Assembly: GCF_022447245.1 (NCBI RefSeq)
Contig: NZ_JAKVBC010000041.1
Coordinates: forward strand, 1 to 40,860
Reading direction: 5' to 3'
Origin: Kordia sp.
GTDB lineage: Bacteria; Bacteroidota; Bacteroidia; Flavobacteriales; Flavobacteriaceae
DNA: 40,860 bases
Below are positions 10,469-29,615 of the stretch, in pieces. Both the position numbers and the translations under genes were made by a program. The notes under the pieces are model-generated. The model did no database searches. It was not told the DNA's origin and was given only the letters and a program-made list of their open reading frames with translations. Position 1 is the stretch's first letter; each line of letters starts with the position of its first letter.

Positions 10469-13354
10469 TTGATTTCTAAAGCCTTCGTTTTTATTCTATT
10501 GTTTTGTGTATTCACTGCAAATGCACAACACCCTTTGTATCAACAATTGAGTGAAAAAGATGGTTTACCTGATATTGAGTTTTATGATATCGTTGAAGAC
10601 AAAGACGGTTTTATTTGGTTAGCCGCTGATAAAGGTTTGTTTCGATATGACGGAGAAACCTTTAAAAATTATACGCATCCAGAAAAAAAAGGATTATCCG
10701 TTTTTGGACTTAAGTTTGATCATAAAGGTAGACTTTGGTGTAATAATATTTACGGACAGTATTTTTATATAGAAAATGATTCACTTCAATTGTTTACGAG
10801 CCTTAAAAAATATAGCAGAGGTCAACTAGGACAATTTCTTTTTTTTGATCATAAATTAAATGTTACATGTTTCCAATACAATTTGGAGATTGATTTAGAA
10901 ACAAAGGAAATCAAACGTATACTTCCTGAAACAAAATCACATATCTCTGCATTTAAAAAAGGAGACACACTATTCTATGTAAATGATTATAATTTTAAAT
11001 AAAAAACAATCACAAACGACTCCATAAAAACCCTAAGTTCGTTAGTATTGACTAGAATGTCTACTAATAACTTATTTAAAATCAATAATGATTTATTATT
11101 ACAATCTATGGATTACTCTATTCCAGAGTTAAATCTATTTTTAAGCACGAACAATAAAAGCTTTACCAAACTAACTAGTGAGCAATTAGATTTAAAATTT
11201 CCTGTAGTCAACATTTTCCTTGAAGACGGATATATATGGCTTTGCGGAACCAACGCAGTGTATAAATACAAGTATGTAGGTGGAGAGTTTATCCTTGTAG
11301 AAACGCTATTTGAGAACAAAAAAATCACCAAAATATTTAAAGATAAAAATGGCAACTATTGGTTAACGAGTCTACAAAATGGCATCTACATTATTCCTAA
11401 TATTCACATCAAAAAATATGCACTCCCCGAAGATGATGAACATATAAGTGCATTGGTAAAAATTGATGCAAATACACTTTTATACGGAACCAAGAAAGGG
11501 GCACTAATTCGGAAAAATATCTCAACAAATCAAGAAAGAAATATTGTACTTCCCAATAGAACACAAATAAACAAGTTAGCTTTTAATGGCTCTGATAAAT
11601 TGATTGTTAGTATAGGTGACAAGGGATATATTCTGAATACAAGTGATGATTCATCATACAATTCAAAATTTCATGTAGGACTTGGTAATGCGAAAGGATT
11701 ATCTTTTATAAATGAGCATGAATTTGTTATTGGAGGATTTGCCTTTGCAGAAATTCTGGATCTTACTCGTAATACAAATAAAAGAATTGGATTTCGTCGT
11801 GCTTATAATACTCATTATAATACCGCAACTGAAAAAATTTACGTGAGTTTTGTTGATGGCCTAGAATGGTATGGTAAAGATTTGATTCCACACGAAATTA
11901 CATTTAATGGACAACCTATTTTTGCCATCGACATCGATAATACTTCAAATAATATTGTTTGGGTTTCCACTTTTTCCAATGGTATCTTAGGAGTTAAAAA
12001 TGGTAAAACTATTTATAATTATACTGTTGAAGATGGATTATTATCGAATAGAACTAGAGCGATAAAAGCAGATGGAAATTATTTGTGGATTGTGACCGAT
12101 AAAGGAATTCAACGCTTTAATACAGAAGAGAAGACTTTTAAAAATTTAACGAAAAGAGATGGTTTGACGAGTTTTAATATTTCTGAAATTTTAATCTTTG
12201 ATGATCAATTAGTTTTTGGCTCTAACAAAGGCTTGTACCAATTAGATAAAAACAAGGTATTTAAGCCAGTTATACTGCAAGATTTCTATTTTACAAAAAT
12301 ACAGATTGAGGATAAAGAAGTACCTATTAAAGATCAATATGATTTGCCGCATGACAGCAATAAAATCAAGTTTGAATTTCAAACTAATGGGTATTTATCT
12401 GAAGAAAGTATGTCCTATTATTATCGTTTACTTGGTTCAAACGATACGTGGTCAGCTGTTACCCAAGGTGTCAATGAAGTTGTATTTAACAGCTTATCTA
12501 GTGGAAACTACACTTTTCAGCTTAAAGGTGTTGAAATTAACGGAAGTAAAGAAACTACTATAAGAGAAGTTGCTATCAAAATCAATTTGCCTTTTTATAA
12601 AACTTGGGGATTCATTGGAATTATTTCACTGCTTTTTATATCGGTTATAGGTTTTGGCTTTTTACAACGAGAAAACAGCATCAAAAAACGTCAAAAGCAA
12701 CTTTTAGAAAAAGAACGCTTGGAACGACAAATGGTATCTTCTAAACTGAAAAGTTTGCAATCACAGTTAAATCCTCACTTTGTTTTCAATGCTATGAATT
12801 CTATTCAAAATTTAATTTTAAAAGATGACAAAAAAGACGCCTATGCATACTTAACTAAGTTTGCTTCTTTAATGAGAGAGAATTTAAACATGAGCGAAAA
12901 AAGCTTTGTATATTTTGATGAAGAAGTATCGCATCTTAAAAAATATTTAGAATTAGAAAAGTTGAGATTCAGAAATAATTTCACCTATACTTTGGCAGGT
13001 CAGGAAGACATCGAAGACATTAAAATTCCGTCTACAATCATACAACCATTTATTGAAAATGGCATCAAACACGGATTGCTACACAAAAAAGAAGGCAAGA
13101 GAAATATTGAAATCACATTTTCTCAAGAAGGTGAAGTTTTAAAATGTGTTATTGTTGACAATGGCATCGGAATTGAAGCAGCAAAAGCGATTGAAAAATC
13201 AAATGAATTAAAATCCGAATCCTTCTCTACCAAAGCTATCAAAGAAAAGTTAAATTTGTTGAAAAAGTATTACGATACAGATATTGGTTTTCATTATGAA
13301 GACGTAACCATAGGAACAAAAGTTATATTAAAAATACCCGCAAAACTATCTTAA
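10469..13354 (+). pseudogene. Propeller-type sensor histidine kinase (LytS-like), in-frame TAA
   Basis: The frame runs 10469-13354 (about 961 codons) with one TAA at 11000-11002; both sides share the same frame. It opens with a signal peptide (KAFVFILLFCVFTANAQ), then two-component-regulator propeller blades (IVEDKDGFIWLAADKGLFRY and repeats up to about residue 640). A Y_Y_Y beta-sandwich, one membrane helix (WGFIGIISLLFISVIGFGFL) and a coiled coil follow. The H-box LNPHFVFNAMNSIQN of His_kinase (PF06580) comes next, with an ATPase N-box (IIQPFIENGIKHGLL) and a VDNGIGI motif. The partner regulator lies 83 bp downstream. The first codon is TTG 10469; an in-frame ATA at 10457 may be a lost ATG. 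The part after the TAA lacks the signal peptide and would probably not be exported. The signal sensed is unknown. Confidence 0.85.
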
Positions 13355-13360
13355 AAGCAC

Positions 13361-13402
13361 TTTAGGAAATAATTTTTTAGCATTCGGAAAATTTATCCTA
13401 AA
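13361..13402 (+). promoter_or_regulatory. Inverted repeat between kinase and regulator genes
   Basis: TTTAGGA (13361-13367) and TCCTAAA (13396-13402) pair, and the inner AATAATTTT / AAAATT bases extend the stem imperfectly. The loop contains CATTCGGAAA, the same motif found twice after the regulator gene. It could be an operator, an attenuator or a processing hairpin. Confidence 0.4.
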
Positions 13403-13437
13403 TACTGTTTTAAAAAAGTGATTTTTACACTTGAATT

Positions 13438-14178
13438 ATGAATAAGAGCATTACAGCCATACTCGTTGACGATGAAATAAATGCAAGGGAGAATTTAAGA
13501 TACTTATTGAATTTACTCTGCAAACAAGTAACTATAGTCGGTGAAGCTGCTAATGTAGATGATGCCAAACAACTCATCAATCAAGTTCAGCCACAATTGG
13601 TATTTTTAGATATTCAAATGCCCGAAAAAAGCGGCTTTCAATTGCTTGATGCTTTTCAAAACTTAACTTTTCAAGTAATTTTCATTACGGCATACGATCA
13701 TTATGCCATCAAAGCATTTAGAGTTTCTGCTATAGATTATCTATTGAAACCAATTGATACGGAGCTATTACAAAAAGCTGTACAAAAAGTAGAAAAACAC
13801 CTTGAACATCACACCGTTAGCAATCGTATCTCAACCTTAAAAGAAAATAAAAAACAAATACAAAAAATCGCAATTCCCTATAAAAACGATTATGTCATCA
13901 TCAATATTAAAGATATACTTTGTATGGAAGCTGATAGAATGTATACCATTATTCATACGGTAGAAAAGAAACAATATATTGTAGCCAAAAAACTTCGATA
14001 TTATGAAGATTTATTAAAAGATCATAACCTTGTAAGAGTTCATAGATCTTGGTTAATACACCTAAATCACATCGAAACCTACTCTAAAAAAGAACGTGCT
14101 GTAACACTCAACCCCCAAAAGAAAGTCCCTGTAAGTAAAGGATTTAAAACAGCTTTTGAAGAAGTCTTTCATTCTTAA
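13438..14178 (+). CDS. LytTR-family response regulator
   Basis: The 246 residues comprise a receiver domain at about 1-120 and a LytTR DNA-binding domain at about 145-244. The acidic pocket is DDE at 11-13, the phosphoacceptor is Asp58 in FLDIQMPEKSG, Thr is in FITAYD, and the Lys is in YLLKPID. The LytTR part shows IPYKNDYVIINIKDILCMEA and LVRVHRSWLIHLNHI, matching the ten-stranded beta fold that reads direct repeats in the major groove. It pairs with the kinase directly upstream, where the His_kinase/LytTR combination is standard. Likely targets are its own locus and the surface-protein genes that follow, whose upstream DNA carries 21-bp-phased repeats. Confidence 0.93.
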   Translation: MNKSITAILVDDEINARENLRYLLNLLCKQVTIVGEAANVDDAKQLINQVQPQLVFLDIQMPEKSGFQLLDAFQNLTFQVIFITAYDHYAIKAFRVSAIDYLLKPIDTELLQKAVQKVEKHLEHHTVSNRISTLKENKKQIQKIAIPYKNDYVIINIKDILCMEADRMYTIIHTVEKKQYIVAKKLRYYEDLLKDHNLVRVHRSWLIHLNHIETYSKKERAVTLNPQKKVPVSKGFKTAFEEVFHS

Positions 14179-14192
14179 ATTTTAAAAAAAAC

Positions 14193-14235
14193 CATTCGGA
14201 AATAAATACGATTCATTCGGAAGTAAAAAGGAATT
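14193..14235 (+). promoter_or_regulatory. Candidate LytTR operator: tandem 21-bp CATTCGGAA repeats
   Basis: Two direct copies begin at 14193 (CATTCGGAAATAAATACGAT) and 14214 (CATTCGGAAGTAAAAAGGAA), exactly 21 bp apart, and a third copy of CATTCGGAAA is at 13381 in the gap before the regulator gene. LytTR proteins typically bind pairs of direct repeats spaced about two helical turns apart. A -7-like TATCTTCG sits at 14253-14260, so the repeats would lie at the -35/-55 position, suited to activation of the surface-protein gene at 14505. The match is by pattern only. Confidence 0.55.
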
Positions 14236-14295
14236 ACTTGTGGTAATGAAAATATCTTCGCATTAAAATATTATTCCTCTAAACTGAAATTTACA

Positions 14296-14439
14296 ATGCG
14301 AACAAAGTTGCCCAAAGCATTTGCTAGATTCAATAATGTAATCTATGCCCTGCCCAATCTAAAAATTCATACAACAGAATACGCCACTACGTATTCTTTT
14401 TCAAGTAGTATCAACTTTCATTATCAGCTAGCTAGCTAA
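14296..14439 (+). CDS. Possible 47-residue small protein or leader peptide
   Basis: ATG 14296 opens a 48-codon frame ending at TAA 14437-14439 (MRTKLPKAFARFNNVIYALP and onward to HYQLAS). It starts about 36 bp after the putative -7 box and ends about 65 bp before the large surface-protein gene. It has a basic N-terminus and no obvious membrane helix. A hairpin with a T run lies inside it. It may be a leader peptide, a small protein, or chance open sequence. Confidence 0.25.
   Translation: MRTKLPKAFARFNNVIYALPNLKIHTTEYATTYSFSSSINFHYQLAS
14377..14401 (+). terminator. Weak hairpin with T run in surface-protein leader
   Basis: GAATACG (14377-14383) pairs with CGTATTC (14390-14396) around a 6-base loop and is followed by TTTT (14397-14400). 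It could terminate the regulator transcript or act as an attenuator before the 14505 gene. The stem is short and AT-rich. Confidence 0.35.
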
Positions 14440-14504
14440 GATAAGAAGCTACTAAACACACAACGTACACATTTAATAGTCAAACAAATTATAAATTAAA
14501 AAAA

Positions 14505-17500
14505 ATGAAAAAAATACTACTTTTTATGCTATGCATAACTTCTTTTGCCTATGCACAATATCCCATAGGCGGACTTACTGCTGCATACGAATTCAATGGA
14601 AACTTAAACGATTTAGCCAACGGTAATAACATGAGTATTGTCAATGGTTCAATGTTGTACCCAACAAATAGAGTGAACACTCCGGCAAGCTCATTAAATC
14701 TGCTTTTTGGAGACGCCAAATGCCCTAATATTGACTATCAAAATGCAGGTGTTTATAGAGATTTGATGACCTATAGTTTTTGGGTGAAAACGTCCTTAGA
14801 TGACGCAAATCGCAGAGTAATCATAGAACAATCTGATCGTTCTAGTGATTCAGATACGGAATATAATGGTACAGTCATTTACTTAAAAGATGGCAAAGTA
14901 GGAATTAACAACACACTTCGTTTAGGAAATTCTGATTATAGAATTATGAATAAAGAAATGCCTGATGTTATTAGTGATGGTAATTGGCATCATATATACA
15001 TTAGCGTAAAATGGAAGGAATATTTAAATGATACTAGAGTGGATCATTTGATTACAATTGCAATTGATGGAAATACGCTCTCAACTTCAACCGAAACGTA
15101 TGGTAAACCATCTCATGTTTCTGTAGCATCATACGATGTAATTAATGCCGATATTGCCATTGGAAACAATTCAGCAGGAAATTTACCTGCTTCAAATAGA
15201 TTTCCAAATCAAATTGACGACTTGTTAATGTATGGTATCGAATTGTCAGCAGCAGATATTCAAACTATTACCAATTCTTTAAATTTTTGCTTTGTACCTA
15301 ATTCAGATCTTATAAGTTTTGCAAACATTCAAAATACAAGTGTAGAAGTTCTTATAAATGGTTCCGATACTTATGATGTAGCCTATGCACCAGAAGGAAC
15401 TCCAATTAATCAGGCAACCATTGTTAATAATGTAACCTCCATGACTACACTTACTGGATTGGATGCTAATGTGAACTATGAAGTATACATACGTAAATTA
15501 TGCGCAAATACCACAAGTTGGTCAGCGCCAAAACTTTTTAGAACTACTCGTACTACAGGTGTTTTATATGTAAATGAAAATGCTACAGGAATCAACTCAG
15601 GTACTTCATGGAGTAATGCGTATACAAATTTACAATCGGCTCTAGCAGATGCAATAGATGGTGAAGAAATTTGGATGACAGGCGGAACATATAAACCATC
15701 AATAAGCGGTGATCGATTTGATACGTTCTCTGTGAACAATTTTGTGTCGATTTATGGAGGCTTTGCAGGGAACGAAGCTGCGAAAGAAGATCGAGTATAT
15801 GGAACAAATGAAACCATTTTATCTGGAGATTTAAATGGCGATGATGATGCTATCATAACCACTGAAAATACGCTGCGTAGTGATAATAGTTATCATGTAA
15901 TTTCTATAGGTGCCTTAACTACAACTACTGGAGAAAAAGTAGTATTTGATCGATTGACAATTAGTGGAGGTAATGCCAATACTGTTATATCTGATATACA
16001 TAGAACAGGTGCAGCCATTTTAAAAGATGATGTTGTGAGAGGTTTAGAAATCACAGATTGTGTCATTAAAAACAATTCATGTAGATTTGGAATTATTTCA
16101 AGTTCATTTGGAACTGGATCTGCTGCACATTTGACCATAAAACGTTGTATTATAGATAATAATTACAGTGGAACAGGAACTATATATGCCTTATCTTCTT
16201 CAAACTTTTCTTCTGTAGCATTTTCTGTTAGTATTGAAAACACACAAATCACTAACAATATAGCTACAGATACCAATGTAAGCATTGGAACCGCAGGAAG
16301 TGCTTTATTTGTGAGAGCAGGAAATGTGAGCTCAGCTACTGTGCGTATTGAAAACTGTACCATCGCAAACAATCAAGATGTAGGAACATTCAATGGTTAT
16401 AATAATTTTAATAGAACTCCTATTATTGCCCAACGAACAACGACCTCATCTGCTGCTTCCAATACCACAGTTCGTGTATACAATTCTATTTTTTATGGAA
16501 ATACCACTGCTAATGGCTTGACTTCACGTGCTATTTCAAAAGGAAATGAAAGTACTCCAGAGCCATTAGTTGAAATATTTAATGCTATAGATGAAAATAA
16601 CTTTTCAAATATTCCTGTTGCCAATGTAACCAATGGGAGTAGCGCAAATCCTGTTTTTACAAATGCAGCAAATGGTGATTATACATTGCAAATAAATTCA
16701 CCAGCTATTGATGCAGGAGACAACTCAGCAGTGAATTCTACCATTGATCTAAATGGAAATACGCGTATTATAAATTCAGTAGTAGATCTTGGTCCGTATG
16801 AATATTTTACATCGCTTGTTGTAGCTCCACAGGTATATTTACAAGCTCCTATGTTAGGGGTTGGTGGCACAAATATGAATGATCTTTTGAGAACTGGAAA
16901 TTATTTACCAACCACTTCTCCTTACGCCGATGGAGCTACTTGTGATCCTGCTGTTTTTTCAACTACTGGAAATGATGCTATTGTAGATTGGATTTGGGTA
17001 GAATTAAGAGATGCAGCAATGAATACAACTGTAATAGACTCTCAATCTGCTTTATTACAGCGCGATGGTAACGTAGTTGCAACGGATGGTGTTTCAAATC
17101 TAGTGTTTAATCAAGCACAAGGAAGTTATTACATAGTGCTAAAACATCGAAATCATTTAGGAATTATGACAAATACAGCGTTGAACTTAAGTCAAACAGT
17201 TACAAATGTAGACTTTACAGATGCAAATAATCAAATTACTTTCGGCACAAATGCACAAACAACTTCTGGAATGCCAGTAGGCTTGGTTGCTATGTGGTCA
17301 GGAAATGCAAATGGAGATACCATAGTTCAGTACTCAGGAACTACGCCTGATGCACCTAGTATCTTATCGCAAGTACTGAATGATGGTGGCAACTTCCTAA
17401 ACTTTCCAACATATATCGTTACAGGATACAATGCGTATGACATAAATATGGATGGTAGCATACAATACGCAGGAATAACACCAGATACTCCAAGCATTTT

Positions 17501-17579
17501 ACAAAACGTACTAGCACATCCTGGAAACTTTTTAAACTTTAGTACATATCAAATTCAAGAGCAATTACCAGAAAATTAA
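14505..17579 (+). CDS. Surface protein: LamG, beta-helix and two dockerin-like C-terminal motifs
   Basis: The 1024 residues start with a signal peptide (MKKILLFMLCITSFAYAQ). A LamG/concanavalin-like domain spans about 20-255 (LTAAYEFNGNLNDLANGN; DGNWHHIYISV). A fibronectin-III-like segment lies at about 265-350. A right-handed beta-helix at about 350-780 begins with LYVNENATGINSGTSWSNAY, the usual start of choice-of-anchor/DUF1565-type helices. After a further beta segment, two copies of a 47-residue unit end the protein (930-977 and 978-1024), with NANGDTIVQYSG..PD..SILSQVL and DINMDGSIQYAG..PD..SILQNVL. These fit calcium-loop dockerin-like motifs (DxNxDG). No T9SS sorting domain is visible, unlike the gene 28 bp downstream, so the two products may dock on each other. 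An adhesin or carbohydrate-binding role is likely. Confidence 0.8.
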   Translation: MKKILLFMLCITSFAYAQYPIGGLTAAYEFNGNLNDLANGNNMSIVNGSMLYPTNRVNTPASSLNLLFGDAKCPNIDYQNAGVYRDLMTYSFWVKTSLDDANRRVIIEQSDRSSDSDTEYNGTVIYLKDGKVGINNTLRLGNSDYRIMNKEMPDVISDGNWHHIYISVKWKEYLNDTRVDHLITIAIDGNTLSTSTETYGKPSHVSVASYDVINADIAIGNNSAGNLPASNRFPNQIDDLLMYGIELSAADIQTITNSLNFCFVPNSDLISFANIQNTSVEVLINGSDTYDVAYAPEGTPINQATIVNNVTSMTTLTGLDANVNYEVYIRKLCANTTSWSAPKLFRTTRTTGVLYVNENATGINSGTSWSNAYTNLQSALADAIDGEEIWMTGGTYKPSISGDRFDTFSVNNFVSIYGGFAGNEAAKEDRVYGTNETILSGDLNGDDDAIITTENTLRSDNSYHVISIGALTTTTGEKVVFDRLTISGGNANTVISDIHRTGAAILKDDVVRGLEITDCVIKNNSCRFGIISSSFGTGSAAHLTIKRCIIDNNYSGTGTIYALSSSNFSSVAFSVSIENTQITNNIATDTNVSIGTAGSALFVRAGNVSSATVRIENCTIANNQDVGTFNGYNNFNRTPIIAQRTTTSSAASNTTVRVYNSIFYGNTTANGLTSRAISKGNESTPEPLVEIFNAIDENNFSNIPVANVTNGSSANPVFTNAANGDYTLQINSPAIDAGDNSAVNSTIDLNGNTRIINSVVDLGPYEYFTSLVVAPQVYLQAPMLGVGGTNMNDLLRTGNYLPTTSPYADGATCDPAVFSTTGNDAIVDWIWVELRDAAMNTTVIDSQSALLQRDGNVVATDGVSNLVFNQAQGSYYIVLKHRNHLGIMTNTALNLSQTVTNVDFTDANNQITFGTNAQTTSGMPVGLVAMWSGNANGDTIVQYSGTTPDAPSILSQVLNDGGNFLNFPTYIVTGYNAYDINMDGSIQYAGITPDTPSILQNVLAHPGNFLNFSTYQIQEQLPEN

Positions 17580-17607
17580 AAACATCCTATCAGATAAGAT
17601 TTATATT

Positions 17608-18429
17608 ATGAATAAAATTAAAATACTCAGCCTTTTCCTTCTTGTATTCAATTACTATGCAAATGAAATTTTTGCCCAAGATGGATATACATATACCTTG
17701 GCACATAATAGTGGATACAGTTTCACAGTACAAGCTGTACCAAATGCAAGCGCTAATAACTTTACGACTTCTGTTCAGAGTTACGGATTCACCATCATTC
17801 TACCAGATGGAGTTACAATAAACACAGGATCGACAACTTCTTTAGGAAACGCAGCAAGCGCTACTTTTTTCGATGGAACTAATGTAGCACAGCCAACACT
17901 AGATGGATATTTAGTTACAGAAACATTAGGAAGTCCAGTAGCATTGCCTGCTCCATCTGCAGCAATAAATTCTAATATATTTACATTCACGGTAAATGGA
18001 AACCCAACAAGTGGAGAATTAAAGATACTAGAAAATAATTCAGCATTAGCAACTACAGTTACACCATTAAAATCATTTATGCAAGCAGATATGATCGATA
18101 ATGGAATGGCTCAATTTGTAAATGTTGTAGATCCAAATGCAGCAGCGGTATCTGGAATGAGTACATTCAATTTTGCTACATTAAGTAGACCAGAAGTTGA
18201 AAAGACAATATTTTCCATATATCCCAATCCTGTAACAACTGTTTTAAATATTAGCATGGAAGCAACTTCCTTCTTAAAAGCAGAAATATATGACTTGCAA
18301 GGGAAAAAGCTTTTCGAAAGTAAAAAAACAAATATTGATGTTTCTCACATATCAAATGGTATCTATATATTAAAAATTATAGATACTGAAACTAGCGTTA
18401 TTAGTACTGAAAAATTTGTAAAAAAATAA
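17608..18429 (+). CDS. T9SS-sorted beta-sandwich protein, possible cohesin-like partner
   Basis: The 273 residues have a signal peptide (to about residue 23, NEIFAQ). A beta-rich domain at about 25-180 contains GYTYTLAHNSGYSFTVQAVP, FTIILPDGVTINTG and a Gly/Ala/Ser-rich stretch. The C-terminus is a type IX secretion (Por) sorting domain, with FSIYPNPVTTVLNIS, AEIYDLQGKKLFE and ISNGIYILKI, ending KFVKK. It is therefore exported and probably attached at the cell surface. The short beta domain has the size of a cohesin (about 150 residues), and the upstream gene ends in dockerin-like motifs. That makes a receptor/ligand pair plausible, but the sequence alone does not prove a cohesin fold. Transcription ends at the hairpin at 18502-18531. 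Confidence 0.8.
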   Translation: MNKIKILSLFLLVFNYYANEIFAQDGYTYTLAHNSGYSFTVQAVPNASANNFTTSVQSYGFTIILPDGVTINTGSTTSLGNAASATFFDGTNVAQPTLDGYLVTETLGSPVALPAPSAAINSNIFTFTVNGNPTSGELKILENNSALATTVTPLKSFMQADMIDNGMAQFVNVVDPNAAAVSGMSTFNFATLSRPEVEKTIFSIYPNPVTTVLNISMEATSFLKAEIYDLQGKKLFESKKTNIDVSHISNGIYILKIIDTETSVISTEKFVKK

Positions 18430-18501
18430 GTGTTTACATACTCTGAACCTGAACTAGGTTCAAATAAAGATATGTTTTAAACTAAATAGAATTATTAACA
18501 A

Positions 18502-18531
18502 ACAAGCGAACTTCGGTTCGCTTGTCTTTTT
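18502..18531 (+). terminator. Strong terminator with UUCG tetraloop
   Basis: The perfect 10-bp stem ACAAGCGAAC (18502-18511) / GTTCGCTTGT (18516-18525) closes a TTCG loop with C-G closing pair, the extra-stable cUUCGg form, followed by CTTTTT. It ends the 14505-18429 operon. Confidence 0.93.
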
Positions 18532-18546
18532 AGACAACTATAATGC

Positions 18547-18583
18547 AAAAAAGCTGCCCTAATTCAACGAAAGGCAGCTTTTT
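18547..18583 (-). terminator. Terminator of the LamG lipoprotein gene
   Basis: AAAAAGCTGCC (18548-18558) pairs with GGCAGCTTTTT (18573-18583). On the minus strand the hairpin ends in a T run, about 50 bp past the stop of the 18632-20635 gene. It could work in both directions. Confidence 0.85.
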
Positions 18584-18631
18584 ACGATAGTCACTAAACT
18601 AACTTAAATAAACACTTAACTTTTTAAAACT

Positions 18632-20635
18632 TTATAAACAATTGTTGCAATCGGCTTCCAAGTTGTATAACGTTGTAACTTGGTTTGGATTTAAGGCAAC
18701 TTTGTATACTCTGATATCATCCAAATGACCTTCAAAGCCATTTCCTAACATATAATTCATTAATGGTGTGCTTCCAATATCAATAGCAGCATTTTCGTCT
18801 ACGTTTCGCTGTACACCATCGCGATATAAACGTACCGTATTATTACTATCAACAGTAACTACTAAATGATGCCAATTGGTTGTATCTGTTGGCAAATCTG
18901 GATCCGTATTCCATGGATCATCCCATAAACCATAACCAGAATCTGCATCACTGAATACAGGCGTATTTAAATCAAATACACTAATTTGAAAACCTTCACT
19001 AACAGTATTTCCTTTTTGGAATAAAATCTCATAATTAGAAGGATCTGTATTTTGCATTTTAAACCATAAACTCACGGTAAATGCGTCTCCTTGCACAATT
19101 TGATTGTTATTCGTTATAGGAATTTCTACTGTTTCATTTCCATCAAAAGAAATTGCACAAGAACTATTTCCTGATCGGTCAGAGACATAATTATAATTTC
19201 CTGAAGCTTCCCAGTTACTCACTAAATCTTTGGTTTGGTTAGCAAATGGCATATATAAAATCATATCATCTGTGAGCACAATATCATTAGTACAACAGTC
19301 TTCTACAGAAATTGTAATTGTATATATTTGAAAAACACCTACTGAATCTTGAATTCGCAAATACAAGGTTTCTACTTGTGACGTATTTGTATATGGGCTT
19401 AAAAGTGGATTTGTGCTTGCTACTGCATCTGATTCTGTAATATGAAATGAATAGGTATACTCTTGTGTACAACTTACATTGTTAATGAATAATGCTTCTA
19501 AGTCCATTGCCACAAAACCATCAAACGGATTTTCTTCGTCACAAAAAGTGATTTGCATATTTTCAAAACATTCAAAAGGTGTAGCATTCTCACATACTTT
19601 TTGCAAGGTGATTTCTTGATTTCCGCTATGCAATAGTAATTGATCTTCACTGCATTCATCAATGATCCATGAACCATTAAGCATGGTTAATTCGGTATCA
19701 ATATTACTAACGTTCAATACTAAATTTCCTTGTTCAACTGTGACTTCCCAATTTCCTGTATTTTCTGCTCCATTTGGATCTGTAGAAAATGTAAATGAAC
19801 CATCTTCATCAAAATAGAATTCATACGCTAACTCCGTATTTCCTACAAAATTGGTGATTCTCCAAAAACAGTTTATCAAATTAGCTGTGATTTGTTCTTC
19901 AGTACAATCAGCATCATTATAATTGTTGTCATCATCTTCATCGCAAGTATCTTCCGCTAAAGCAATCGCAGCCTCTAATTCATCATTACTATTTACAGAA
20001 ATTACAGTTCCGTCCGCTTTAATTAAATTGATGGGATAATTAATACTCGCCACTACTCCATCCGCCAAGGTTTCTAAAAAATAGAACAATGTTTCGTCAT
20101 CCGTAATATTTTGAGTTTCTATGACTTCAAAATTCACATTAAAAATGGCGATACTAAACGGATATTGAAAGTCGATACATTCTATATCAATATCTGGCTG
20201 ATTTGGTCCTGAACAATTGGAAATCTGCGCAATCAATTCTTCCTCATTTTCAACAGTAACTTCCGAATAATCACTTAAAATTATTGTAATTGGATAGGTA
20301 ATTTCGACAGAATTGTTATCAGACTGACTTAACAATTCAAGAATTACAGGATAATCACTGGTACTATTTACAGTACTTGTAACACCATTGATTGTCACCG
20401 TTACTGGCAAATCAACCAAGAAACAATTGGCATTGTCTATAAAATTATCTGTAGAACCATCTAATAAGGTTACACGTTCCATTAAACGTGGTAAAGTTGT
20501 ATTGGCTACCAAAGTAGCTCGTGTATCAGGTTCAGTAGTTTGTATTCTTTCCTCTTGGCAAGCTTGGAAACTGAGGCATATCGCGCAAAGCGAAAACACC
20601 ATTTTTACAACTTTAATTAGGGCAATTCTATTCAT
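18632..20635 (-). CDS. Large multi-domain surface lipoprotein with C-terminal LamG domain
   Basis: The 667 residues begin with a lipoprotein signal ending LSFQAC (Cys about 26). Two tandem related units follow (about 70-145 and 150-235). Each opens with a Cys and a DLPVTV/QYPFSI strand and carries a central YPI.I/YPINL strand and a V.N..EL.A/AQI end before a second Cys, a clear internal duplication. A lipocalin-like region lies at about 250-350 (CFWRITNFVGNTELAYEFYF), then a Cys-flanked beta domain at about 355-450. The C-terminal LamG domain at about 465-660 contains DDMILYMPFANQTKDLVSNW, TNWHHLVVTVDSNNTVRLYR and GHLDDIRVYKVALN. Acidic DEDDDNNYND near 235 may bind calcium. It is divergent from the sigma/FecR operon. 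Adhesion or glycan binding is probable. Confidence 0.8.
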   Translation of the reverse strand: MNRIALIKVVKMVFSLCAICLSFQACQEERIQTTEPDTRATLVANTTLPRLMERVTLLDGSTDNFIDNANCFLVDLPVTVTINGVTSTVNSTSDYPVILELLSQSDNNSVEITYPITIILSDYSEVTVENEEELIAQISNCSGPNQPDIDIECIDFQYPFSIAIFNVNFEVIETQNITDDETLFYFLETLADGVVASINYPINLIKADGTVISVNSNDELEAAIALAEDTCDEDDDNNYNDADCTEEQITANLINCFWRITNFVGNTELAYEFYFDEDGSFTFSTDPNGAENTGNWEVTVEQGNLVLNVSNIDTELTMLNGSWIIDECSEDQLLLHSGNQEITLQKVCENATPFECFENMQITFCDEENPFDGFVAMDLEALFINNVSCTQEYTYSFHITESDAVASTNPLLSPYTNTSQVETLYLRIQDSVGVFQIYTITISVEDCCTNDIVLTDDMILYMPFANQTKDLVSNWEASGNYNYVSDRSGNSSCAISFDGNETVEIPITNNNQIVQGDAFTVSLWFKMQNTDPSNYEILFQKGNTVSEGFQISVFDLNTPVFSDADSGYGLWDDPWNTDPDLPTDTTNWHHLVVTVDSNNTVRLYRDGVQRNVDENAAIDIGSTPLMNYMLGNGFEGHLDDIRVYKVALNPNQVTTLYNLEADCNNCL

Positions 20636-26444: not shown

Positions 26445-29400
26445 TTATTTTTTCAACTCTTTCAGAATAACCTCTATCGCTTTATCTAATTGTGGGCTTT
26501 CTCCATCTAAACGTTCTTTAAAACCTTTTTTAACATATATATCTGGCGAAACTCCATGTATTTCTAAATCTCTACCATCCAAGGTATAACAACCCCAACT
26601 AGGAATTCGGTATGAAGAACCATCAACTAAAGACTTACTTGTTGTAAAAATAATCCATCTATAAGTTTCTGTTCCTATGATTGTTCCCAATTTTAATTCT
26701 TTAAAGCCTGCAGCCGTCATTTCAGCATCCGATAACGATTGTTCATTTATTAATAAAACAATGGGTTTGTTTGCATAATTAAAGTTTGATTGACTTGTCA
26801 ATTTCCCTTCGCGATACTTCCAATTTAGATATTGTTTTTGACGTAAGAAATTCAATACCGCATCATGAACATTTCCTCCAGTATTAAAGCGTAAATCTAA
26901 AATTAGTCCTTCCTTATACGCTTCTTCACTCATCAAATCATAGTAAAATTTAGTAAGTTCTGTTTGCGACATATCTTTCATGTGAACATAGGCAATCTTA
27001 TTATTTGACTTTGCATCAACATATGCTTGATTTTGATCTTGCCATTCATCATAAATTAAATCTTTGAGATTCCAATACGAAATTGCATGTACATTTACTT
27101 GAAACTCTATATTATTTCTACTGAATGTCAGGCTAATTTCAGCGTTAAATTTTGGGTTAGCGAAATACTGTTCTCTATTCAGTTTTTCATCTACTCTTTT
27201 ACCATTTACCGCTACTAGCCTATCGCCTTTTTTAAGATCTTTTCCTTTTACATCTGTCGGACCTTCAGAAACGATTCGTTCTATCATAAACGGATCATTT
27301 TCATTAAAAATAATTCCTGTTTCTGATGTACTAGTTCCATGATATATTTGTTCCTCTTTTCCAGAAGAATAAAATCCAAAGTGAGACGTATTTAGTTCGC
27401 CAAGCATGTCATTAAAAATCAATCGTAGGTTTGCTCTGCTAGATACATACGGTAAAAATTTTGCATAAGCATCTCTTAATTTTTCCCAGTTTTCGCCATG
27501 AAAATTTTCATCATAAAAATTCTCTTCCATTCCAGCCCAAGCTTCATAATACATTTGATCAAATTCTTTAGCTAATGATTTATTGAACCGATGATTTATG
27601 GTAATTGGCTTTAACTTATTCGCCTTTACATCTACTGTTTGGATAGTTCCTCCAGATAAGAGATAATGTTTTTTCCCAGAAGTAACAAACTGATAGCCAT
27701 ACATAGGCGTATCGCTTAATTTTACTGTTTTATTTTTTTCAAAAGGTTCTAGCGTTGTTTTCCACAATTTATATGTTCCTTCATCGTGATTTGATATGTA
27801 TAAAATATGGATTTTAGCTCCATCTTTCACAACTGTGATATTGCTTTGATTACCAAATCTAGGACTTATCCTTGTCAAACGATCCATCAATCCTTTTTCA
27901 TTAATGGACACTGTAACTTTTTCTTTTTTCTTAGTTGTTGCTTTCTTTTTATCGTCTTCTTTGTCCTTCGTATCTTTATTTTCCTCCTCGTTAAAAAGTT
28001 CGTTTATTTTATCAATTTTAAACGGCTTTTCATAGGCATCTAAAGCCATTTGATATATTTTAGATTTACCACTTCCTCCACTTGGAAAATTTGGTTTTAT
28101 TCTTTCTGAAGAAGAATAAATATATTTACCATTCGGAGACCAAATAGGCCCAGTTTCTGAAACTTTAGTTTTGGTAAGGTTGATCGCTTTTTTAGAAGCT
28201 ATATCGTAAGCAAAAATATCTGTTTCAAAATCTCTATACGCATTGTACACAATATATTTATCATCAGGAGAAAAGTAAGGATTTGAATTATAAAAGCCCC
28301 ATAATTCGTCTGTTACCACCAATTCACTTTTAAAGGTTTTAAGGTCAATGATATAAATTTCATTTCTTCCACTTAAATATACACCTTTGGTTTTATCAGT
28401 GTTCAACGTAATTTGCCTCTTATTAGAAGGACTTTTTGTGAGTTGTTTCGTTTTAAACTTTCCGTTTGCGCTCGTCACGAACCAATTGTAGTATCCTTTC
28501 GCTGAGCGAGAAAATAGTAAAGAATTATTGTCCTTTAACCATTTTACTTCCTTTACGGCTTCCAATGGATTGGTCACGACTTCTTTTACAAATTTTCCTT
28601 TTACATCAGATACAAATAGTTTCCCTCTAGATACAAAAGCCATCTTTTTTCCATCAGGGGAAACATCAAAATATGAAATTGCTTTTTTGATATCGTATGA
28701 CTGTTCTTTTTCTATGGTTGAATTGGTATTGATATTAATGTCTAGCTTTTTCGTAGTTTTTTTAACAACATCATAGATGAACAATTGATAATCTTTTCTA
28801 AACACTATTTTTTCACCATTTGCACTTACTTTAGGCCACATAATTGAGGTAGAAAAATTAGTCAATCGCTCTGGAGTACCATTTTCTAGTTTATATAAAT
28901 TGTATTCTCCATTATCTCTGTCTGATAGAAAATATACATTTCCTAATTTATCAATGGTTGCTGCAAAATCTTTTCCTTTGTATGTTGTATACTGCGTATA
29001 TTTTTTGGTCTTTTCGTCATACGATTTTATATCAGGGTTGTAATCACCTTTGTATCTTTTTCTATGCGCAAAACGTGAACTTTCCCATGATTCATTAAAA
29101 TATATTTCCTTTTTTTTTGGATGTTGCACTACATTATGAACCGTATTAAAGTAATGCTCAAATGTTCTTTTAGGTGTTTCGCCATCAATGGAAATTGTAT
29201 AATTAGTGATGGAATTATATCTAGCTGACTCAAAGTTGATGGTTTTACTATCCCAATTCCATGAAGATACCCTATCATTACTTTGGTGAAAAGTTAGCTG
29301 TGTAATTCTGCCTCCTTTTAACGGCATTATATAGACATCATTGTTTCCGTATTGATTGCTTGAAAACGCCAACCATTTTCCATCTGGAGAAACACTAGGA

Positions 29401-29615
29401 TGGTTTTCTATACCTTGCATTGCCGTTATTCGACTTGCTTCTCCTCCATTAGAAGCAACTTTCCATAAATCTCCTTCATAACTAAATATTACATACTTAG
29501 CATCAGGAGTCAGAGTAGGTTTTAATGTAAAATAAGCATCATCACTACTTTTTTGTTGTCCGTGAACAAGAGACACTATCACAAATGTGAAGAGAAGAAT
29601 TATTTTTTTAATCAT
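26445..29615 (-). CDS. Tricorn-like S41 protease with PD40 propeller
   Basis: 1056 residues, full length for exported tricorn-like peptidases. The signal peptide (IILLFTFVIVSLVHGQ) is followed by repeated PD40/WD40-type blades (TLTPDAKYVIFSYEGDLWKV; VSPDGKWLAFSSNQYGNNDV; FSPDDKYIVYNAYRDFETDI). A lysine/glutamate-rich linker lies at about 545-572. A helical core domain, a PDZ domain at about 775-840 (DVKGKDLKKGDRLVAVNGKR) and the S41 catalytic domain complete it, with LILDLRFNTGGNVHDAVLNF and the nucleophile motif SLSDAEMTA (Ser about 962). It likely degrades peptides in the periplasm. It converges with the gene pair at 25332-26423, and only 21 bp separates the stop codons. Confidence 0.93.
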   Translation of the reverse strand: MIKKIILLFTFVIVSLVHGQQKSSDDAYFTLKPTLTPDAKYVIFSYEGDLWKVASNGGEASRITAMQGIENHPSVSPDGKWLAFSSNQYGNNDVYIMPLKGGRITQLTFHQSNDRVSSWNWDSKTINFESARYNSITNYTISIDGETPKRTFEHYFNTVHNVVQHPKKKEIYFNESWESSRFAHRKRYKGDYNPDIKSYDEKTKKYTQYTTYKGKDFAATIDKLGNVYFLSDRDNGEYNLYKLENGTPERLTNFSTSIMWPKVSANGEKIVFRKDYQLFIYDVVKKTTKKLDININTNSTIEKEQSYDIKKAISYFDVSPDGKKMAFVSRGKLFVSDVKGKFVKEVVTNPLEAVKEVKWLKDNNSLLFSRSAKGYYNWFVTSANGKFKTKQLTKSPSNKRQITLNTDKTKGVYLSGRNEIYIIDLKTFKSELVVTDELWGFYNSNPYFSPDDKYIVYNAYRDFETDIFAYDIASKKAINLTKTKVSETGPIWSPNGKYIYSSSERIKPNFPSGGSGKSKIYQMALDAYEKPFKIDKINELFNEEENKDTKDKEDDKKKATTKKKEKVTVSINEKGLMDRLTRISPRFGNQSNITVVKDGAKIHILYISNHDEGTYKLWKTTLEPFEKNKTVKLSDTPMYGYQFVTSGKKHYLLSGGTIQTVDVKANKLKPITINHRFNKSLAKEFDQMYYEAWAGMEENFYDENFHGENWEKLRDAYAKFLPYVSSRANLRLIFNDMLGELNTSHFGFYSSGKEEQIYHGTSTSETGIIFNENDPFMIERIVSEGPTDVKGKDLKKGDRLVAVNGKRVDEKLNREQYFANPKFNAEISLTFSRNNIEFQVNVHAISYWNLKDLIYDEWQDQNQAYVDAKSNNKIAYVHMKDMSQTELTKFYYDLMSEEAYKEGLILDLRFNTGGNVHDAVLNFLRQKQYLNWKYREGKLTSQSNFNYANKPIVLLINEQSLSDAEMTAAGFKELKLGTIIGTETYRWIIFTTSKSLVDGSSYRIPSWGCYTLDGRDLEIHGVSPDIYVKKGFKERLDGESPQLDKAIEVILKELKK

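Follow-up and report, generated by a model that had tools for sequence, protein, structure and literature searches.

How might a secreted protein that carries no sorting domain for the type IX secretion system (T9SS) come to be displayed at the cell surface? This question is raised by two adjacent genes in a 40,860-nucleotide contig of Kordia sp. (NZ_JAKVBC010000041.1, assembly GCF_022447245.1), referred to here as the window. The first gene (14505..17579; coordinates are window positions, plus strand unless stated otherwise) encodes a protein of 1024 amino acids (aa), here called the cargo. The second (17608..18429), 28 bp downstream, encodes the 273-aa anchor. The original prediction held that the anchor is fixed at the surface by the T9SS and holds the cargo by dockerin-like docking, and the open reading frame (ORF) sizes and spacing that it gave agree with the coordinates. 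We consider it likely that the pair is a trans-acting surface display unit, in which the C-terminal X-dockerin of the cargo binds a cohesin-like domain in the T9SS-dependent partner, which displays the cargo. Genomic evidence and the cohesin fold give docking good support, and binding is inferred.

Results

The anchor ends in a type A T9SS C-terminal sorting domain (aa 204-273; 18217..18426), recognized by TIGR04183 (E 1e-12) and PF18962 (E 4e-14), as had been predicted. Its N-terminal domain (aa 25-193; 17680..18186) has a close homologue at locus L084 (67% identical), which was predicted to fold with a local distance difference test score (pLDDT) of 94-98 and matched cohesins best. Judged from this model, the domain is a beta-sandwich of the cohesin fold. 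The Pfam family Cohesin (PF00963) matched none of 21 cohesin-like proteins.

Scans with Pfam and NCBIfam confirmed that the cargo lacks a T9SS sorting domain. Its C-terminal part consists of a conserved region, which we named the X domain (aa 776-925; 16830..17279), followed at the extreme C-terminus by a dockerin-like module of two units (aa 926-1024; 17280..17576). The units are a real duplication, as predicted: over 35 gap-free columns their BLOSUM62 score was 111, whereas 2000 shuffles of one unit reached 51 at most. Each holds a calcium-loop-like motif, the first at aa 934-949 (17304..17351; N934-x-N936-x-D938-T-x-V941) and the second at aa 979-994 (17439..17486; D979-x-N981-x-D983-G-x-I986). 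Asp or Asn occupies loop positions 1, 3, and 5, Gly is found at position 12, and no further Asp follows until position 16 (D949 and D994). Canonical dockerin loops have an acidic residue at position 12. Because Gly takes this position and the next Asp comes only at 16, the putative calcium loops of the module are non-canonical. The loop positions vary over 31 member rows; Gly at position 12 was present in 30 of the 31, in both repeats, and Asp at 16 in 28. In outgroup rows lacking the insert, that loop position is Asp.

Single-protein searches of Pfam, NCBIfam, and PDB found no dockerin and no cohesin, and Dockerin type I (PF00404) hit 2 of 31 Flavobacteriaceae members with a best E of 0.42, short of a Pfam match. 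The module is linked to dockerins transitively, through relatives in the phylum outside the family, many of which have canonical loops; Dockerin_1 was detected in 10 of 26 such outgroup relatives (best E 3.9e-5). The Flavobacteriaceae profile A6 aligned with profile A15, with which it shares no genes, at 97.4 (hhalign, E 1.5e-11). Profile A13 matched PDB dockerins at E 1.3e-4 and 2.6e-4, with EF-hand proteins following from E 0.01 on. When A6 was compared directly to PDB, the top match was a dockerin at E 0.26. An A6-A13 comparison (99.6) was discarded because the gene G157 was in both sets. AlphaFold2 (AF2) did not fold the dockerin-like module confidently. In the X domain, 10 of 16 ten-residue blocks reached a pLDDT above 90, and fold matching gave no assigned fold.

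We scanned 299 Flavobacteriaceae genomes for the two modules, using a cohesin profile built from three rows. This search detected 21 cohesin-like genes in 13 genomes, and the dockerin profile matched in 22 genomes. Twenty of the 21 cohesin-like genes lay on the same strand behind a dockerin-like stretch, within about 300 bp (one stretch is decayed), G179:C10 being the exception; the predicted adjacency recurs in flavobacteria. A broader profile, applied to 14 chosen genomes, gave 16 further matches, some partial: 12 followed a dockerin-like gene, 3 were at contig edges, and 1 (G096:C1) had no dockerin-like gene. At the 44 named loci, a dockerin-like gene lay at most 400 bp from the cohesin-like gene in 37 cases (36 by script, plus L063 after correction of its start) and at 2.4 kb in 2. 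These three sets overlap in species and are not independent. We rejected chance adjacency as an explanation of the gene pair. The five remaining loci (L067, L068, L069, L073, and L086) have cohesin-like T9SS genes without any dockerin-like ORF within 8 kb upstream, and these anchors may have cargos elsewhere in the genome.

The two partners divide the labor. TIGR04183 matched all 45 cohesin-like proteins scanned, including that of the window, and none of the 33 cargos scanned (of 48; near-duplicates and 5'-incomplete cargos were left out). All 47 cargo ORFs at the named loci end in the dockerin-like module. The N-termini vary, with BspA-type leucine-rich repeats (LRRs), M10, M4, and M60 peptidases, an endonuclease/phosphatase domain, and LamG (25 of 31 families). 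Two or three cargo genes precede a single anchor at L063, L080, L081, L092, and L095.

Two genomes point to a looser arrangement, in which one anchor perhaps serves many cargos. G195 holds at least 16; among the 16 fetched, one adjoins the sole cohesin-like gene found there, and locus L190 ends at a contig edge. G096 also has at least 16, and none of the 16 fetched adjoins a gene recognized by the cohesin profile (cargo loci of both genomes, L177-L208). At L203 in G096, the cargo is followed by a 233-aa gene that carries a sorting domain. Three cohesin-like genes were found in this genome, two of them with other cargos upstream.

The source genome of the window (G000; 5.24 Mb in 82 contigs) contains the SprA and PorU genes. 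The X-dockerin matches it at five places, of which two contain in-frame stops, and the cohesin-like domain at three. Two of these are intact pairs: that of the window and C82:716-2072. At C14:67253-68166 (L005 and L008), four in-frame stops interrupt the dockerin-like stretch that precedes an intact cohesin-like T9SS gene. Another decayed dockerin-like stretch with in-frame stops was seen at C57:16655-17014 (L004). A pair whose cargo has EGSNGDGF repeats lies approximately 0.2-0.9 kb from a contig end at L060, L062, L064, L065, L070, L075, L077, and G000:C82; its position near contig ends in many Kordia assemblies suggests an unassembled repeat behind the pair.

Distances between modules were compared over 38 adjacent pairs. 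Dockerin and cohesin distances correlated at 0.66 (reached in 0 of 999 permutations), X and cohesin at 0.18, and X and dockerin at 0.26. The sorting domain gave 0.38 with cohesin, 0.53 with dockerin, and 0.54 with X. The dockerin-cohesin correlation was 0.64 given X, and that of X and cohesin was 0.01 given dockerin. The dockerin co-diverges with the cohesin, whereas X does not. Since X and dockerin are in the same protein, this coupling is not accounted for by plain linkage; gene conversion across the gene junction might be its source.

X-dockerin and T9SS tails alternate behind one small N-terminal domain. This domain, 50 residues long and taken from a small cargo, gave 14 matches in 80 genomes, 5 with an X-dockerin tail, 6 with a clear T9SS domain, and none with both; 3 were excluded (L225 and L228, which lie in large ORFs, and the doubtful L223), all T9SS-like in their tails by a local hidden Markov model (HMM). 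Genome G038 has one copy with each tail. This alternation behind one N-terminal domain suggests equivalent roles for the two tails. It also bears on the possibility that the modules bind while the cargo stays in the periplasm or is released in vesicles, with the pairing serving a purpose other than surface display. The finding of no export signal beyond Sec in the cargos scanned would suit that explanation, but LRR, LamG, and M10, M4, and M60 peptidase domains are typical of surfaces and the cargo tail alternates with a T9SS domain; we judge it improbable.

The same alternation would be expected if the X-dockerin region (about 250 aa) were itself a new T9SS sorting signal and the partner only a dedicated surface holder, as PorP/SprF is for type B substrates. 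The region is C-terminal, and its length is that reported to be required of type B signals, which exceed 200 residues (PMC10202324); some X-dockerin genes also have no partner nearby. In both systems, a substrate gene is clustered with a surface-holder gene. However, the holder here is a type A substrate in its own right, with a cohesin-like domain and no PorP/SprF barrel, and the part that diverges with it is the dockerin, not X. We therefore regard a new signal as unlikely and retain docking as the preferred reading.

Across the phylum, matches to the X-dockerin profile were found in 45 of 340 genomes and 39 of 154 genera, many of them covering the X part only. We inspected one outgroup locus from each of the 29 best-scoring of the 44 other matched genomes. 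None of the 29 has a sorting domain in cis with the X-dockerin, and in 21 (20 identified by script, plus L155 on visual inspection) the following gene on the same strand carries one. The local T9SS-tail HMM was trained on the same partners that it then scored; an independent count found Pfam Por_Secre_tail in 17 of 20. The gene behind the X-dockerin at L150, L152, L166, and L168 is cut off at the stretch boundary, and its end is still beyond the longer stretches L214-L217; that of L166 does not resemble a secreted partner. In L214 (G620) and L215 (G536), the gene behind the X-dockerin exceeds 1400 and 1690 aa, respectively, its end not reached. No sorting-domain partner was found behind L149, L151, L159, or L156 (which has an internal stop); L159 has a sorting-domain gene directly upstream and another 0.5 kb downstream. 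X-dockerin proteins with tails like NPNIGKGEQF, which may be another anchor type, occur at L149, L151, L211-L213, L218, and L229. No T9SS partner was seen behind L149, L151, or L211-L213; L218 and L229 were not checked.

The cohesin-like profile A5, searched in 345 genomes of the phylum, matched only the genome of the window, so outgroup partners were called by position and T9SS domain alone. Their N-termini showed no detectable similarity to A5 or to PDB, and calling them cohesins is for this reason a guess. This lack of similarity, and an AF2 run on the joined chain that gave no clear complex, would fit surface neighbors of separate function, kept together by descent, whose likeness to cohesin and dockerin is convergence without binding. 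Against this explanation, which we hold to be very improbable, the arrangement persists despite changed cargo N-termini and is seen again in many genera, and the divergence of one module follows that of the other across the gene border.

In the window, both signal peptides were judged by eye, that of the cargo being a Sec signal at aa 1-18. The 28-bp gap (17580..17607) has no terminator-like site. The only one on the plus strand of 14150-18650 is a hairpin behind the anchor gene (18502..18525; 10-bp stem, T run), and the two genes look like a single unit; the number of terminator-like sites (2, versus 1.8 in shuffles) is not above chance. The predicted LamG character of the cargo rests on a Laminin_G_2 match (aa 123-195; 14871..15089; Pfam E 0.003) that is present but under the gathering score, as is an fn3 match (aa 272-341; 15318..15527; E 2e-4). 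The choice-of-anchor Q domain NF041518 (aa 725-767; 16677..16805; NCBIfam E 3.3e-8) is above the cut-off. Directly upstream of the cargo gene, on the same strand, lies a two-component pair (11048-14178), a Y_Y_Y-type histidine kinase and a LytTR regulator. A Tricorn-like protease with PD40 repeats, Tricorn_C1, and an S41 peptidase domain is encoded at 26445-29615 on the minus strand.

Discussion

According to our model, the cargo would enter the periplasm through its Sec signal peptide, and its X-dockerin would bind the cohesin-like domain of the partner. The partner, to judge from its type A sorting domain and from the SprA and PorU genes, would pass through the T9SS translocon and be fixed at the cell surface, so that the cargo would reach the surface although it lacks a sorting domain. 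The complex most likely assembles in the periplasm and leaves the cell as one; alternatively, the cargo could be exported by another route and dock afterwards. In some genomes, a small number of partners may serve many cargos encoded at scattered sites. Of greatest interest is how the cargo would cross the outer membrane. It is quite possible, if short of probable, that a folded cargo-anchor complex, joined in the periplasm through dockerin and cohesin, crosses by means of the partner's sorting domain only, and that such transport is a widespread, unrecognized route with one anchor for many cargos.

In clostridial cellulosomes, an X-dockerin pairs with a cohesin, and cargo is anchored by a cell-bound cohesin. 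The Kordia pair shares the cohesin fold, a domain ahead of the dockerin, and the proposed anchoring of cargo by a cell-bound cohesin. It differs in its T9SS-domain anchor, its one cohesin-like domain per partner, its non-canonical loops, and the absence of a carbohydrate-binding module (CBM) from the 25 of 31 cargo families shown here. We rejected a cellulosome as such, since the 273-aa partner has room for one cohesin-like domain beside the sorting domain and its relatives are of similar size; multiple cohesins were judged on the partner and its relatives, with no search for canonical cohesins elsewhere in the genome. The nearest precedent is the cellulosome-like complex of "Ca. Stygibacter" (Cloacimonadota), inferred from metagenome-assembled genomes, with secreted enzymes bearing C-terminal dockerins and a 3755-aa scaffoldin of tandem cohesins and CBMs that attaches to the surface through a conserved C-terminal domain (PMC8542988). 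Both systems combine C-terminal dockerins on secreted proteins with a cohesin protein predicted to be attached to the surface. Unlike what that source describes, Kordia has small single-cohesin anchors in two-gene units, modules missed by Pfam, and cargo with LRR, peptidase, and LamG domains.

No description of this gene pair was among the literature matches listed; subscription journals were mostly outside their coverage, and an earlier account is possible. Inventories of surface proteins in T9SS bacteria commonly rely on a search for the sorting domain, which would miss proteins displayed through a partner. The pair offers a clean test of whether the T9SS can carry a folded complex. Its recurrence in related bacteria suggests that some of their surface proteins are exported or anchored via a partner.
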